From NCBI GenBank assembly GCA_003141245.1, contig PLLE01000046.1, positions 26,198 through 61,743 of the forward strand: a stretch of DNA of 35,546 nt. Direction: 5' to 3'. The notes under the pieces are model-generated. The model saw only the letters and a list, made by a program, of their open reading frames with translations. It did no database searches and was not told the DNA's origin. The stretch is from Chloroflexota bacterium. GTDB lineage: Bacteria > Chloroflexota > Limnocylindria > Limnocylindrales > CSP1-4. Positions 19,033 to 24,893 of the stretch are shown piece after piece (position 1 is the first letter of the stretch; each line of letters begins with the position of its first letter). The position numbers were made by a program, and so were the translations under genes.

Positions 19033-19419
19033 ATGACACAAGTCGATCCGGGCGCCGATCGCTCCAGGACCTTCCCCGCGGGCGTCCGGCCCGCCCAGCG
19101 AATCTGGCTCCACGACCAAGGCATGCCGGTCTTTGGGATCGGGATCCGCGAGCTGCTCATCCGGGTCGAGTCGACGGGATCGCTCCGTCAGGCCGCGTCC
19201 GACATGGGTATGGCATACAGCAAGGCCTGGCACATCGTGCGTCGGGCCGAGGAGCACCTTGGCTTCACGCTGCTCCAGCGACGAACCGGCGGCACAGGTG
19301 GCGGAGGCTCAGCTGTGTCCGATGAGGGGAGACGGCTCGTCGAGGCCTTCGGCGCGTTGCTCGACGAAGCGGACACGTTGCTCGACGAACTCTACGCGAA
19401 GCATTTCGGCAACTGGTAG
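19033..19419 (+). CDS. modE: ModE-type DNA-binding protein, winged-helix domain only
   Basis: A 128-residue protein equal to the LysR-like winged-helix domain of ModE. The helix-turn-helix is STGSLRQAASDMGMAYSKAWHIVRR in parts (48-71). The glycine-rich wing GGTGGGGSAVSDEGRRL (86-102) is highly characteristic of ModE (GGKGGGG in other species). There is no C-terminal TOBE/Mop molybdate-binding domain, so effector sensing must be indirect or occur through a partner. The N-terminal 30 residues are extra. ATG 19033 is chosen over the preceding TTG. A ModE-like palindrome lies just upstream, and an ABC transporter begins 80 bases downstream. Confidence 0.85.
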   Translation: MTQVDPGADRSRTFPAGVRPAQRIWLHDQGMPVFGIGIRELLIRVESTGSLRQAASDMGMAYSKAWHIVRRAEEHLGFTLLQRRTGGTGGGGSAVSDEGRRLVEAFGALLDEADTLLDELYAKHFGNW

Positions 19420-19499
19420 CACGCGGGGGACGACATCCGGATCGAGAGAGCGCCCGGACAAACACATCCACCCACAAGAGATCAGGAGGATTCCGTCAC

Positions 19500-20630
19500 G
19501 TGAAGCGGTCGTTCATCACACTGGCCGCGGCCGCTGCGCTCTTGGTCGGTGCCTGCTCGACTCCGGGGTCCGTCCCAGCGACGAGTGCCCCATCGAGCAC
19601 CGTGACTTCCAGCGCTGCGAACCCGAGCAGCGGCGCGATCACGGTCACCGACGCGATGGGCAACAACGTGACGTTTACGGCCCCTCCGACTCGGATCGCC
19701 ATCGCCGGCAAAGCTCTCTTCATGGTCGCTGACGCGGTCTATCTCTTCCCTGAGGCGTCGTCGCGCGTGGTCGCCCTCGGCAGCACCGTCCAGAACGCCC
19801 TCTCCTTCATCCCCGTCATCGATCCCGCTTACGGCAGCAAGACGATCCTCGACGCCTCCGCCGGGGCGGAACAGATCGCGGCCGCCAGGCCGGACGTCGT
19901 TCTCCTGAAGAGCAGCAACGCCACTACGCTCGGCAAGCCGCTCGCCGCGCTCGGCGTGAAGGTGGTCTACGTCGACTTCGAGACCCCGGACCAGTACGCG
20001 CGGGACCTCAAGACGCTCGGGCAGCTCTTCGCCGACGAGGTGAAGGCGCAACAGCTCATCTCGTACTTCCAGCAGCAGACCGATCGCGTCACCACCGCGG
20101 TCGCAGGCATCGCGGATGCCCAGAAGCCCAAGGTTCTGCTGCTGTACTACTCCAACAAGAACGGCACGATCGCGTTCAACGTGCCGCCGATCGGCTACAT
20201 CCAGAGCACCGAGGCACAGCTCGGTGGCGGCCAGCTCGTATGGAAGGACGCCCAGCTCGGCAACGGCTGGACGACGGTCACGCTCGAGCAGATCGCGGCC
20301 TGGAATCCCGACCAGATCTACGTCATCGCCTACTCCGGCAACGTGAACGATGTCGTGACGGAGCTCAAGGCCGATCCGCAGTGGCAGGCGCTGAGTGCGG
20401 TCAAACACGCCGCGATCTACGGCTTCCCCGGCGACTACTACAGCTGGGACCAGCCCGATCCTCGTTGGGTCCTGGGCCTCACCTGGCTAGCCGCGAAGAT
20501 GCACCCCGACCGCTTCACCAGCCTATCCATGGACACGGAGATCCGCGGCTTCTATCGGGACCTCTATGGCATGGACGATGCCGCTTACGACAAGTACGTC
20601 AAGCCCTACCTCTCCGGTGACCTGCCTTGA
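19500..20630 (+). CDS. Periplasmic-binding lipoprotein of a FecCD/BtuCD-type ABC importer, probably for molybdate or tungstate
   Basis: A 376-residue class III (BtuF/FhuD-like) binding protein. The signal peptide ends in LVGAC with lipidated Cys19, followed by a Ser/Thr/Pro-rich linker to about residue 45. ITVTDAMGNNVTFTAPPTRI is the usual first strand pair of iron/siderophore-type binding proteins. Two lobes joined by a long helix are suggested by the QIAAARPDVVLL and YARDLKTLGQLF segments. GTG 19500 has AGGAGGA 9 bases upstream. By family alone the ligand could be iron, cobalamin or heme. The ModE-type regulator and operator directly upstream favour molybdate or tungstate, as for the MolABC transporter of Haemophilus. 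Confidence 0.82.
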   Translation: MKRSFITLAAAAALLVGACSTPGSVPATSAPSSTVTSSAANPSSGAITVTDAMGNNVTFTAPPTRIAIAGKALFMVADAVYLFPEASSRVVALGSTVQNALSFIPVIDPAYGSKTILDASAGAEQIAAARPDVVLLKSSNATTLGKPLAALGVKVVYVDFETPDQYARDLKTLGQLFADEVKAQQLISYFQQQTDRVTTAVAGIADAQKPKVLLLYYSNKNGTIAFNVPPIGYIQSTEAQLGGGQLVWKDAQLGNGWTTVTLEQIAAWNPDQIYVIAYSGNVNDVVTELKADPQWQALSAVKHAAIYGFPGDYYSWDQPDPRWVLGLTWLAAKMHPDRFTSLSMDTEIRGFYRDLYGMDDAAYDKYVKPYLSGDLP

Positions 20631-21670
20631 GCCGGAGCACCGTCACAGTGGGTGCCCGCCCGGCCTGGAGCTGGGGTGCGGCGCCGGCCACTCGCAAGCT
20701 CGTGGTGATCGCCGTGCTTCTCGGTGTCGCGGTCGCGATCTCGCTCCTCATCGGCCGTTATCCCAGTCCGGGGATCATCGCGCCGGATCGGCTCGCGACC
20801 GACGACCTGGCCCAGCGCATCGTGTTCAACCTGCGGCTGCCCCGGGTCCTGACAGCATTGGCGCTGGGCATGAGCCTGTCCGCCGCGGGTGCAGTGTTCC
20901 AGCAGGTCTTCGCCAATCCCCTGGTGGACCCGGGATTTCTCGGGGTCTCGCAGGGCGCCGCCTTCGGGGCATCGCTGGCCATCATCTGCTGGGGCAGCAC
21001 AGTCTGGCTCGTGCAGGCATCGGCCGCGCTCTTCGCGTTCGCCGGCCTCGGGTTCTCCTACCTCCTCGCGCGGCGCGCGCAATTCGGCGGCTCCGTGCTT
21101 CGCCTGGTCTTCGCGGGCATAGCCGTGTCCGCACTGTTCTCAGCGGGGGTCGGCGGGCTCAAGTACATGGCCGACCCGATGAGCCAGCTCCCGGAGATCA
21201 CCTTCTGGCTCCTGGGTGGACTGGCAAGCATCACGTGGCCCCAGTTCTGGTCGATCGCGCCCGTGGTGTTCGTGAGCTTGTTCATCGTGTACCGGATGCG
21301 CTGGCGCCTGAACCTTCTGTCGCTCGACGACTCGACGGCATTCTCCATGGGCGCAAGCCCCGGGCGCGAGCGAGCGCTGCTCCTTTCCGCCGCGGTCGCC
21401 GCGACGGCGGCAGTCGTGTCCGTGTGCGGCATGGTCGGTTGGGTGGGACTGATCGTCCCGCACATTGCCCGGCGCCTGTTCGGCGCAGATGCGCGGTACG
21501 CCGTTCCCGCGGCGTTGCTGATCGGCGGGCTCTTCGGCGTATTGTGCGACGACGTCGCGCGGACGCTGCTGGCCGGCGAGATTCCCATCGGCATCCTGAC
21601 GTCGCTCATCGGCGCTCTGTTCTTCGTCGTGATCTTCATGACCTACGGACACGTGGGCGAGCAGCGATGA
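20627..21670 (+). CDS. FecCD/BtuC-family ABC transporter permease
   Basis: A 347-residue integral membrane protein with about ten hydrophobic segments. Family signatures are RLPRVLTALALGMSLSAAGAVFQ near 70-92, NPLVDPGFLGVSQGAAFGA, and the ATPase-coupling GWVGLIVPHIARRL near 265-278. The TTG start overlaps the lipoprotein stop (TTGA, 20627-20630). It forms the channel of the type II importer with the lipoprotein and ATPase on either side. Confidence 0.93.
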   Translation: MSRSTVTVGARPAWSWGAAPATRKLVVIAVLLGVAVAISLLIGRYPSPGIIAPDRLATDDLAQRIVFNLRLPRVLTALALGMSLSAAGAVFQQVFANPLVDPGFLGVSQGAAFGASLAIICWGSTVWLVQASAALFAFAGLGFSYLLARRAQFGGSVLRLVFAGIAVSALFSAGVGGLKYMADPMSQLPEITFWLLGGLASITWPQFWSIAPVVFVSLFIVYRMRWRLNLLSLDDSTAFSMGASPGRERALLLSAAVAATAAVVSVCGMVGWVGLIVPHIARRLFGADARYAVPAALLIGGLFGVLCDDVARTLLAGEIPIGILTSLIGALFFVVIFMTYGHVGEQR

Positions 21671-22440
21671 CGCCGCTCCTCACGTTCGACGAGGTGACCT
21701 TCGGCTACGGGTCTGGCACCCGCCCGGTGTTGCAACGGCTGTCGCTCGACATCGAGAGCGGAACGGCGACGGCGATCCTGGGGCCCAACGGCGTCGGCAA
21801 GAGCACGCTCCTCCACCTGGCGCTGGGTTGGCTCCGGGCTCAAAGCGGGCGCGTGCTCCTGGATGGACGGCCGCTCGACGCCTACCCCCGGCGACGGCTC
21901 GGACAGTCGATGGCGCTGGTGCCCCAGGTCGAGCGCACACCCTTTGACTACACCGTCCTCGACTACGTCCTGCTGGCACGCGCGCCATACCTTGCCCCGC
22001 TCGCCATGCCGGGGGCGGACGACGAGCGAATCGCCCGCGAGGTGATCGACGAGGTCGGCCTGGGCCAGCTGAGCCGTCGAACGATCACGACGTTGAGCGG
22101 CGGCGAGCGCCAGAACGTCCTGGTCGCCCGAGCCCTGGCACAGCAGCCCCGGCTCCTCCTGATGGACGAACCAACGTCGCACCTCGATCTCGCGCACAAG
22201 GTGCGCCTCGTCCATCTCGTGCGCGATCGCCTCGCCCGGGGAATGACGGTGCTCCTGACGACGCATGAGCCGGACGTTGCCGCCGCCATCGCGACGCACC
22301 TCGTGTTGATGCGTGACGGGCAGGTCTGCGGTTCCGGTCCGCTTGCCGACGTTTTCACGGCCGACAACCTGAGCGCCACGTACGGGGTGCCCGTGCAGAT
22401 CGCCCGGATCGACGGACGGCAGGCGGTGCTTTGGACATGA
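21667..22440 (+). CDS. ABC transporter ATP-binding protein of the FecCD-type importer
   Basis: A 257-residue ATPase with Walker A GPNGVGKST at 39-47, a Q-loop near 87, signature LSGGERQ at 143-149, Walker B LLLMDEPT at 163-170, and the H-loop in TTHEPD. The closest flavour is FepC/BtuD/MolC. The ATG overlaps the permease stop by ATGA, and the stop overlaps the methyltransferase start by ATGA. The large upstream extension of the open frame is a shadow of the permease gene. Confidence 0.94.
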   Translation: MTPLLTFDEVTFGYGSGTRPVLQRLSLDIESGTATAILGPNGVGKSTLLHLALGWLRAQSGRVLLDGRPLDAYPRRRLGQSMALVPQVERTPFDYTVLDYVLLARAPYLAPLAMPGADDERIAREVIDEVGLGQLSRRTITTLSGGERQNVLVARALAQQPRLLLMDEPTSHLDLAHKVRLVHLVRDRLARGMTVLLTTHEPDVAAAIATHLVLMRDGQVCGSGPLADVFTADNLSATYGVPVQIARIDGRQAVLWT

Positions 22441-23318
22441 GCGTCGGCGCCGACCGGCGGGCTCGGCTCCGCATCGCCGGAGCGACCGACTGGGCCGCCC
22501 TCTGGCGCAACCTCGTGTTGGCCCGGGCGCGATGTCTCGACGATGGATCGGCCGTCGATCCGCGCTCGTCGCGGTGCATCGACCCGTGGGAGTCGCGGGC
22601 GCGGGACTACGACGAGCGCGTCGCTCGCCGCTGGACCAAGCCCGACTCGACCCGTCAGTTCGTCCTTGCGCAGATCGCAGAGGGCGCCACGCTGCTCGAC
22701 ATCGGTGCCGGGACGGGGGCCTGGGCGGCGATGATGGCCCCACATGCAGCCCGCGTCACCGCGGTCGAGCGCTCGCCGGCCATGATTCGCGTCCTTGAGG
22801 AGAACCTGGCCGCTCGGGGCATCACGAACGTTAGCGTGGTGGAGGGATCGTGGCCGGAGGTCACGGTGGAGCGGCACGACTTCTCGCTATGCGCCCATGC
22901 CATGTACTGGTCCCCCGATCTCCCCGCGTTCGTTGGGCGCATGATTGCCTGCACGAGGCGTATGTGCTTCCTGGCGCTGCGGGCACCCAGCCCTCAGGGG
23001 ATCATGGCGGAGGCCGCCCTCCACCTCTGGGGCCATCCGATCGACAGCCCTAACCTCACGATCGCGACCAATGTCCTGCGCCAGATGGGGCTCAGCCCTC
23101 ACGTCCTCATGGAGCGCGGCGGGATGCGGGAGCCGCGGCAGAGCGCCAGCCTCGAGGACGCATTGCAGCGGATGAAGCGGCACTTCGGCTTGTGCGACAC
23201 GACCGAGCACGACGAGTACTTCGGTGCGCTCCTCCGACGTCGGCTGGGCTACGAGGGCGGGCGCTACGTATGGCCGCCCGACGACGGCTCGGCCCTGATC
23301 TACTGGACCGTCGAGTGA
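22437..23318 (+). CDS. Class I SAM-dependent methyltransferase
   Basis: A 293-residue protein. Motif I is LDIGAGTGAW at 87-96, motif II contains VTAVERSPAMI, and the post-motif region FSLCAHAMYW is typical of class I methyltransferases. The N-terminal 70 residues (with WALWRN-like and ARDYDERV segments) are extra. The target is unknown. ATGA and GTGA overlaps weld it between the transporter ATPase and the THEP1-like gene, so it must function with the transport operon, perhaps on a metal-chelating small molecule or a cofactor precursor. That last suggestion is inference only. Confidence 0.8.
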   Translation: MSVGADRRARLRIAGATDWAALWRNLVLARARCLDDGSAVDPRSSRCIDPWESRARDYDERVARRWTKPDSTRQFVLAQIAEGATLLDIGAGTGAWAAMMAPHAARVTAVERSPAMIRVLEENLAARGITNVSVVEGSWPEVTVERHDFSLCAHAMYWSPDLPAFVGRMIACTRRMCFLALRAPSPQGIMAEAALHLWGHPIDSPNLTIATNVLRQMGLSPHVLMERGGMREPRQSASLEDALQRMKRHFGLCDTTEHDEYFGALLRRRLGYEGGRYVWPPDDGSALIYWTVE

Positions 23319-23908
23319 AATCGTCGCGGGCGCATGGATCCTCCGACAGGCAGATCGTGATCCTGACGGGCGCACCGGGGACGGGCAAGACGACGACCTG
23401 CCGTCGGCTCCTCGACCGTGCGCGCGAGCTCGGGCTCGATTGCGCGGGCATCCTCTGCCCGGCGCGCGTCGATGACGGGGTGAAGGTTGGCATCGACGTG
23501 ATGGATGCGCGCACGGAGGAGAGTCGACGGCTCGCGGAAGTAGACGAGCTGCCCGGCAGGCTGCGGGCCGGACCGTATCGTTTCGATGAGGAAGCCGTCG
23601 CCTGGGGGATCGCCCGGCTCGGCATGGCCTGCCCGTGCGATGTCCTGATCGTGGACGAGATCGGACCGCTGGAGATGGACCGCGGAGAGGGTTGGATCAA
23701 CGCGCTCGATGTCCTGCGTGCTGGCGACTACCGCCTCGCCTTGGCGGTCGTGCGTCCATCCCTGGCGGACGCAGTTCGGACGGCGGTCAGCGCCCCGGGA
23801 GCGGCGCCAGTCCGACGGTGGGTCGTGCCGGATCGGGGGACGGTGGGCGAGCTGTTGTCGCTGGTCGAGTTGGCGTCGCGTCGGCACGCGAGGGATGACG
23901 GCGGTTAA
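23315..23908 (+). CDS. THEP1-like nucleoside-triphosphatase
   Basis: A 197-residue P-loop protein. Walker A is GAPGTGKTT at 19-27, and the Walker B region is VLIVDEIGPLEM near 110-121. The latter is the hallmark of the THEP1/NTPase family (VVDEIGPLEL). THEP1 enzymes hydrolyse NTPs with broad specificity and are sometimes encoded in molybdenum- or tungsten-related clusters, where the physiological role is open. The GTG start overlaps the methyltransferase stop (GTGA); the open frame extending back to 23192 is a shadow. It is the last gene before the tRNA fragment. Confidence 0.82.
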   Translation: MKSSRAHGSSDRQIVILTGAPGTGKTTTCRRLLDRARELGLDCAGILCPARVDDGVKVGIDVMDARTEESRRLAEVDELPGRLRAGPYRFDEEAVAWGIARLGMACPCDVLIVDEIGPLEMDRGEGWINALDVLRAGDYRLALAVVRPSLADAVRTAVSAPGAAPVRRWVVPDRGTVGELLSLVELASRRHARDDGG

Positions 23909-23944
23909 TGTGGCGGGCCGGCGAAGAGGCGGCAGCGGTCACGC

Positions 23945-23987
23945 TCTGCTTGGGAAGCAGACACTCTGCCAGCTGAGTTACTCCCGC
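23945..23987 (-). pseudogene. 5' fragment of a tRNA-Gly(CCC) gene, 3' half missing
   Basis: On the minus strand from 23987 the sequence gives a normal tRNA 5' part. The acceptor strand is GCGGGAG, followed by TA. The D-stem ACTC/GAGT encloses an AGCTGGCA loop, then G. The anticodon stem TCTGC/GCAGA encloses loop TTCCCAA with anticodon CCC (plus positions 23952-23954). After tRNA position 43-48 the T-stem, the TTCGA loop and the 3' acceptor strand (CTCCCGC expected) are absent. The following bases do not pair with GCGGGAG. It cannot make a functional tRNA. It lies exactly between the accessory block and lipB. Confidence 0.65.
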
Positions 23988-24002
23988 TCGGAGCAGAGAG
24001 AC

Positions 24003-24008
24003 TTATAG
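24003..24008 (-). promoter_or_regulatory. Possible -10 element in front of the tRNA-Gly fragment
   Basis: TATAAG on the minus strand, 15 bases before the tRNA 5' end, is where the promoter of a tRNA gene would be. No clear -35 box was seen. If real, the truncated tRNA may still be transcribed. Confidence 0.3.
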
Positions 24009-24065
24009 CAGATCGCGCGCCGTGAGCGGCGGTCTCGCCCGGCACGCGCCGCGGCGTTTGATATC

Positions 24066-24893
24066 GTGGCGGACATGGATCGCCACGCACAGGACCCGCC
24101 GCCAGGACCCGCCGCCGCAGCCCCGCCGATCGCCGCGTGGTGGCTCGGCCGGACGCGGTATCGCGACGCATGGGAGCTCCAGCATCGCCTCGTGGCAGCT
24201 CGCGCCGCGGGCTCGATCGGAGACCAGCTGCTGCTGCTGGAGCACGAGCCGGTCCTGACGCTCGGCCGCCACTCCGACCCGACCCATGTGCTGGCGAGCC
24301 CAGCCGAGCTGGCCGCCCGCAACATCGAGCTGATCCGGACCGAGCGCGGCGGCGAGGTCACGTATCACGGCCCGGGTCAGCTCACCGCCTATCCAATCGT
24401 TCGTCTGGCCGACCGCTCGCTCTTCGTCCGGTCGTTCGTCCGGGCGCTGGAAGCCGCCCTTTCGGAGACATGCGCCGCCTTCGGTGTCGAAGCCGCGCCG
24501 AAGGAGGGATTCCCCGGTTGCTGGTGCGCGGCGGGCACGCGCAAGATTGGCGCCGTCGGAGTTAGAGTGGAGCGCGGCGTGACCTACCACGGCATCGCCC
24601 TCAACGTCTCGGTTCGGCTGGCCGACTTCGACTTGATCGACGCCTGCGGCATGCCCGGGATCGAATCGACCTCGATCGCACGCGAGCGAGACGAGGGCGC
24701 CGAACCCCCGACCGAATCGGTCGCGCAGGCGGCCGCGGAGTTCGCGCTAGCTCTCGCCCGAGCCCTCCGAGCGCCGCTCGCCGGGACCCTCCCGCCACGC
24801 GCTAGCCCGACCCGCTCACGCAGGGAGCTGGACGCGCTGCTCGCCGACACGGCCCACGCGTCGGCCCTCGCCACGCCCTCGGGGACCCGCTGA
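24066..24893 (+). CDS. lipB: Lipoyl(octanoyl) transferase LipB
   Basis: A 275-residue protein with all LipB signatures: RGGEVTYHGPGQLTAYPI from 94 to 111, the TRKIGAVGV segment with catalytic Lys160, HGIALNV at 175-181, and the catalytic Cys194 in ACGMPG. LipB moves octanoyl groups from acyl carrier protein to the lipoyl domains of 2-oxoacid dehydrogenases or GcvH in the cytoplasm. GTG 24066 is taken as start, and ATG 24075 is equally possible because neither has a strong ribosome site. About 20 N-terminal and 60 C-terminal residues exceed the core. It overlaps the next gene by one base (TGATG). Confidence 0.93.
   Translation: MADMDRHAQDPPPGPAAAAPPIAAWWLGRTRYRDAWELQHRLVAARAAGSIGDQLLLLEHEPVLTLGRHSDPTHVLASPAELAARNIELIRTERGGEVTYHGPGQLTAYPIVRLADRSLFVRSFVRALEAALSETCAAFGVEAAPKEGFPGCWCAAGTRKIGAVGVRVERGVTYHGIALNVSVRLADFDLIDACGMPGIESTSIARERDEGAEPPTESVAQAAAEFALALARALRAPLAGTLPPRASPTRSRRELDALLADTAHASALATPSGTR

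Follow-up and report, generated by a model that had tools for sequence, protein, structure and literature searches.

A tRNA-Gly(CCC) 5' half beside lipB, very probably a displaced attachment site at the edge of an accretion island in Limnocylindrales

Genomic islands that leave a 5' fragment of their target transfer RNA (tRNA) gene have been catalogued before. In the part of the Islander description considered here, 159 of 3919 islands have such a fragment, an integrase is required for each island, and only four tandems of three or more are recorded (PMC4383910). pTN3-like integrases use the 5' half of the tRNA gene, after which the tRNA is expressed from the integrase promoter, an arrangement that a review describes as 'seldomly encountered in bacteria' (PMC8371274). 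Here we describe a tRNA-Gly(CCC) 5' half in a Chloroflexota bacterium of the order Limnocylindrales (GCA_003141245.1, contig PLLE01000046.1), from which we analysed a stretch of 35,546 nucleotides (nt), hereafter called the window. The half lies on the minus strand, divergent from lipB. A preliminary description of the window had noticed the truncated tRNA gene without stating its strand, and the truncation proved real. We propose that the half is very probably a displaced attachment (att) site, that is, a tRNA 5' half left where an accretion island of tRNA-regenerating elements borders lipB. Because it is the 5' half that is retained here, the elements would have entered on the 5' side, the reverse of the usual 3' case, and would have regenerated the tRNA gene with their own 5' half and promoter.

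Serial tRNA-Gly(CCC) halves and their junctions

The half comprises the acceptor 5' strand, the D-arm and the complete anticodon arm. Its parts in the window are as follows:

23987 down to 23945, minus strand: 5' half of tRNA-Gly(CCC), nt 1-43; 45/46 bp identical to the genome's own intact gene; 29.1 bits to the Rfam tRNA model
23950 to 23956, minus strand: anticodon loop TTCCCAA (anticodon CCC), the presumed 7-bp crossover region of the att site
23937 to 23944, minus strand: junction motif GCGTGACC, directly after nt 43, the presumed left end of an integrated element
23988 to 24012, minus strand: leader of the half, TCTGCTATAAG...CTCCGA, promoter-like and common to the half and intact copies in the genus
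24007-24002, minus strand: TATAAG element in the leader

The genome to which the window belongs (G000; 2.54 Mb, 47 contigs, 92% complete) also has an intact tRNA-Gly(CCC). The preliminary description had suggested a whole-genome search for such a copy, and ARAGORN placed it on the minus strand of another contig, at G000:C3:15590. Through nt 43, and counting the CGA that precedes nt 1, the half differs from it by one mismatch in 46 bp. This match excludes chance and bears out the earlier statement that the acceptor 5' strand, D-arm and anticodon arm are intact behind a TATAAG element. Two further 5' halves lie on C3, at 19654 and 23608, on the same strand as the intact gene and on its 5' side.

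Such halves are frequent in relatives. In the genus we examined 25 halves, found in 13 of the 21 genomes, together with 13 intact copies and four sites with assembly gaps, while 39 genomes of other genera contributed 38 intact copies and six halves. These are counts of sites examined with their flanks, not of every pattern match in the genomes, and a weaker half-like site (G029:C53:11082) as well as sites at contig edges lie outside the counting pattern. Neighbouring sites on the same contig were on one strand in 14/14 pairs, and the half was on the 5' side of the intact gene in all 11 same-contig half/intact pairs, which places a 5' fragment upstream of the tRNA gene (tDNA), as in islands with a 5' fragment. 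Brackets of tDNA and fragment in the same orientation are thus seen in relatives and on C3; the intact copy that corresponds to the window half is on another contig. The preliminary description had named relatives with the same fragment and no island as a finding that would speak against an insertion scar. What we found instead was 0.4 to 7.9 kb of other DNA between same-contig neighbours. Assembly error is an unlikely source of the half, because many relatives with separate assemblies have halves too and the gene order at the locus agrees with that of the family (see below).

Nearly all halves break in the same place: 30/31 exit the tRNA sequence at the anticodon loop TTCCCAA or a short way behind it, where a few are decayed. 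The sequences behind them fall into junction families, namely TCTGAGCCTCCC, CATGGCGATGGGCCGG-like, CCGTCTGCTCCCGCG, TCAG..GGCCATGCC-like and the GCGTGACC of the window. The TCTGAGCCTCCC junction occurs in ten places in 7 of the 126 genomes of the order, spread over two genera, and the window junction recurs at the same offset in three genera (G014:C47:7576, G029:C53:12903 and G081:C122:9771). The shared junctions are probably products of site-specific recombination, which would explain them as chance deletion does not. A plain deletion scar, in which deletion without such recombination removed the 3' half of a second tRNA-Gly(CCC) gene, would suit a single half that adjoins core genes on a contig without an integrase. 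We nevertheless consider it highly unlikely, given the break at the anticodon stem-loop that is common to 30/31 halves, the recurrence of GCGTGACC behind halves in three other genomes and the accessory nature of the genes left of the half. The preliminary description had left the choice between an island scar and a later deletion; the former stands, as an integration scar at a tRNA gene, and the 3' half was probably not deleted.

We also considered whether the half could still act as an RNA. ARAGORN called no tRNA in the window, and without a T-arm there is no complete cloverleaf. The Rfam tRNA model aligns to 23987-23928 with a score barely above its cut-off (29.1 against 29.0 bits), and a gathering-threshold Rfam scan of the whole window reported nothing. 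In the Rfam alignment, CTGCCGC plays the 3' acceptor strand with 6/7 pairs. Equal pairing is expected in 37% of random 30-nt stretches of the contig, so the absence of the T-arm and 3' acceptor strand, as first described, stands, and we rejected a T-armless tRNA. That the TATAAG promoter drives a truncated tRNA with a function, or a tRNA-like regulator, is highly improbable and ranks last among the explanations that we weighed. The promoter-like leader, the nearly unmutated half and the weak acceptor pairing (6/7) would all fit it, but the half folds no better than its shuffles (z 0.18), by which a regulatory fold was rejected, the pairing arises by chance as often as stated, and the sequence behind the half varies between junction families. 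Recent displacement accounts for the lack of decay. The regulatory role that had been suggested for the fragment found no backing, as nothing conserved was found beyond att-like features.

The leader was characterised from aligned leaders of genus copies that match query positions 1-64 or beyond. Within the window's own genome, the leaders of halves and intact genes differ.

The DNA between sites carries varied cargo, as judged by Pfam matches. On C3 it includes an MMPL transporter with a TetR regulator and a metallo-beta-lactamase-fold protein. In relatives we found NiFe hydrogenase subunits (G014) and a kelch-repeat protein with a nucleotidyltransferase (G013), and next to integrases a weak match to the DUF6036 nucleotidyltransferase family and helix-turn-helix (HTH) proteins.

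Three further observations concern tRNA copies and junctions. One of the 25 genus halves belongs to another glycine tRNA: at G007:C212:2983 (L210) a tRNA-Gly(TCC) 5' half likewise breaks off after the anticodon loop, and a second glycine tRNA may therefore be hit in the same way. In the window's own genome a degenerate tRNA-Gly(TCC)-like copy (G000:C42:751-820, L038) is well preserved in its 3' part and broken in its 5' part, and resembles the usual scar that consists of a 3' fragment. At five loci (L067, L087, L075, L192 and L184) a palindrome or near-palindrome, CGGAGGGCTAGCCCTCCG-like, lies 15-25 bp behind the halves and is possibly a recombinase arm site or a terminator.

The lipB boundary and gene order in the family

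The half separates two kinds of DNA in the window:

19085 to 23908, plus strand: accessory module with HTH (LysR/ModE-like), Peripla_BP_2, FecCD, ABC ATPase, methyltransferase and NTPase_1 genes (Pfam)
24066 to 24893, plus strand: lipB, the first core gene, divergent from the half (Pfam PF21948)

The GTG start of lipB is 78 bp from nt 1 of the half. The NTPase and FecCD genes on the left are each found in 3 of the 21 genus genomes, the window's own included, against 21/21 for PyrB on the right; lipB is present in 20/21. Positions 19085-23874 of the left module share 84.7% DNA identity over 4.8 kb with G017:C158, where the module adjoins other genes and neither a tRNA half nor lipB is adjacent. 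This homology stops 71 bp short of the half, at 23874. From the other side, 19 other genus genomes have a LipB locus, and in 17 of them the homology of the lipB region ends at 24005-24060; the genes upstream of lipB vary among genus genomes. Since the left genes are rare, pyrB is universal and the relatives' homologies stop on either side, the half is a boundary between accessory and core DNA, and the junction of accessory and housekeeping genes first noted here is confirmed. Relatives of far-left genes on the window's contig (C26) occur in other genomes, within array cassettes or close to tRNA-Gly copies. A gene for FMN reductase occurs twice in the window's own genome (G000:C26:7-252 and G000:C3:24686-25285), beside lipB in G003 and upstream of a half in G016; it is probably mobile array cargo.

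The position beside lipB has a counterpart throughout the family. In all 26 same-contig pairs, from 25 of the 107 family genomes, lipB and the tRNA-Gly(CCC) 5'-half pattern are divergent, at distances from 82 bp (the window) to 69 kb. This count used 93 of 101 lipB rows, eight weaker second fragments having been dropped, and all 104 rows of the tRNA pattern. G106 provides a related empty site: an intact tRNA-Gly(CCC), called by ARAGORN, lies 71 bp from the lipB start as extrapolated from the alignment. These two findings bear on a secondary-site event, in which the ancestral tRNA gene had another location and the end of an element, with leader and half, landed next to lipB. The same leader type does occur at element ends in the genus, and the half is absent at the genus's other lipB loci, but the divergent order across the family and the empty site leave this explanation very little probability.

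Recombinases beside intact tRNA genes and in viral contigs

Tyrosine recombinase genes (PF00589) are divergent from and beside intact tRNA genes in G002, G007, G015 and G054, starting 50-90 bp upstream. The same arrangement is seen in G013, where the tRNA is gapped, and in G016, where the recombinase gene is broken. The tRNAs beside these divergent recombinases have one leader type. The recombinase alignment contains R-K-HxxR-W-Y positions, which we take to be the functional positions of a tyrosine recombinase. All are far under the integron-integrase cut-off (46.4 against 265 bits, TIGR02249), so that none qualifies as an integron integrase, and they are far under Xer cut-offs too. A recombinase of this type is present in 6 of the 14 intervals between neighbouring sites, one of them broken (G016).

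The recombinase of G054, a member of another genus, is 87% identical to that of G002, above the 80-84% within the genus, which points to transfer of the recombinase between genera. LipB of G054 is only 62-68% identical to that of the window. In a scan of 84,980 species genomes, six close recombinase relatives (79% or more) were found among the matches listed (80 loci); their records are 'Chloroflexi bacterium isolate fen_' metagenome-assembled genomes (MAGs) and one Ca. Limnocylindrales MAG. Plasmids were rejected as carriers of the recombinase, all matches being under 60% identity.

Related integrases also occur directly downstream of tRNA-Gly(CCC), in the same direction (L177, G030:C57:146595-147587; L198:5089-6009; L096:7930-8604), and tRNA-Gly(CCC) may be targeted from both sides. 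At L101 (G001:C45:100329-106408) methylase, DUF3883-like and helicase-like genes with weak defence-model matches lie directly upstream of tRNA-Gly(CCC).

A viral contig (3300032516_001510, L314) encodes a 48% identical integrase divergent from a tRNA-Gly(CCC) 5' half that ends in TTCCCAAG and is followed by phage sequence, with head-protease and major-head genes on one side and a portal gene on the other. A second viral contig, L307, is 98.6% identical to L314 over 4.6 kb, and we therefore count both as one lineage. The half in L314 is probably the phage attachment site (attP) of such an element. As some Pseudomonas phages carry a similar tRNA-Gly, it may otherwise be a decayed phage tRNA. The junction labelled alpha was absent from the viral contigs searched. 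A 19-mer search of viral contigs yielded a single contig, in which an integrase lies downstream of a degenerate tRNA-Gly(CCC); this arrangement differs from the one above. In L304 (IMG/VR 3300036761_004159; 353-429 and 570-1481) a 52% identical integrase is divergent from an intact tRNA-Val(GAC) that matches that of the window's own genome exactly over its first 46 nt; this is probably a relative element at another tRNA. A tRNA-Ser that ARAGORN called in L328 was taken as false, as it lies inside an NTPase coding homologue.

Proposed course of events and comparison with known systems

In the explanation that we favour, an ancestral tRNA-Gly(CCC) gene would have been divergent from lipB at a distance of about 75 bp. 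A tyrosine recombinase would join the TTCCCAA loop of this host gene with that of an element bearing a promoter and a tRNA-Gly(CCC) 5' half. The host 5' half would thereby be left beside lipB. At the far end, the 5' half brought by the element would be fused to the host 3' half, and the resulting tRNA gene would be functional under a new promoter. In further rounds the intact gene would move away from the old half as elements pile up between the two, with one half per junction, and units without an integrase would be mobilised in trans. In the window's own genome the series would run from the half at lipB (C26) through about 50 kb of accessory DNA and a contig break to the two halves and intact gene of C3. 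A wider version, which is conceivable and rather doubtful, treats the tRNA gene as a platform: a trans-acting anticodon-loop recombinase would stack small, mostly integrase-less cassettes on the 5' side of tRNA-Gly(CCC) in an integron-like manner, each cassette replacing the 5' half and promoter and leaving a promoter-bearing half, so that the last cassette sets tRNA expression.

Several observations weigh against integration into an accretion island at lipB. Eight of the 14 intervals have no recombinase of this type, and C26 and C3 have none at all; the genome has five PF00589 matches, on contigs C6, C33, C20 and C40. With no such tyrosine integrase on either contig, we do not regard the window copy as a complete island but as the remnant of one, or as an accretion boundary. 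The preliminary description had proposed a search for the missing 3' half and for direct repeats at the far end of the putative island. No second half, even decayed, was found in C26:1-49600 (E<=5), where the element's far end is not seen, and the series would have to cross a contig break to reach C3; the 3' half presumably belongs to the intact gene that C3 now carries. No half was found within about 1.5 kb of any other lipB locus in the genus, and a half at lipB is thus not conserved. In 45 of the 70 genomes that have both, lipB and the tRNA are on different contigs, and their order is not resolvable in drafts of this kind. One of the 31 halves (G006:C31:66813) keeps the T-arm and breaks after it. 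Lastly, the window half has the genus type of leader rather than the TTGAC/TAGAAT type of many other genera.

The proposed island would represent recurrent 5'-side integration at a hot spot between lipB and tRNA-Gly(CCC), within a Chloroflexota lineage about which little is known. Serial halves would record successive insertions, a phage carries an apparent matching attP, and the system would allow testing how a tRNA gene tolerates repeated promoter swaps. Judged from titles and the openings of abstracts, the literature searched describes no tRNA-Gly(CCC) half arrays or islands in Limnocylindrales.

As in the tRNA-targeted islands treated in the cited part of the Islander work, tDNA and fragment would bracket the island and the crossover would be centred on the anticodon (PMC4383910). 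Unlike those islands, the halves here stand in series and 8/14 intervals are without an integrase of this type, a class of island that integrase-requiring catalogues would miss. A tyrosine recombinase at a tRNA gene with cargo, a tycheposon trait, was seen in relatives only. Tycheposons are likewise tRNA-bounded cargo elements with a tyrosine recombinase, but serial halves are not described for them in the part of the source considered (PMC10872708). With integron cassette arrays the locus shares serial cargo units, common ends and one chromosomal site; the ends are instead tRNA halves and the recombinase is far under the integron-integrase cut-off. As with the pTN3-like archaeal integrases, the restored tRNA gene would be parted from its original promoter (PMC8371274, PMC5495485, as far as the sections considered describe it). 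Those integrases are archaeal and their gene is disrupted on integration, according to the portion of the account used (PMC5495485), whereas here the host is bacterial and the integrase gene is whole beside the tRNA. Integration on the 5' side of a tRNA gene is therefore a known, rare kind, of which the serial, largely integrase-less form at a family-wide hot spot is a variant.
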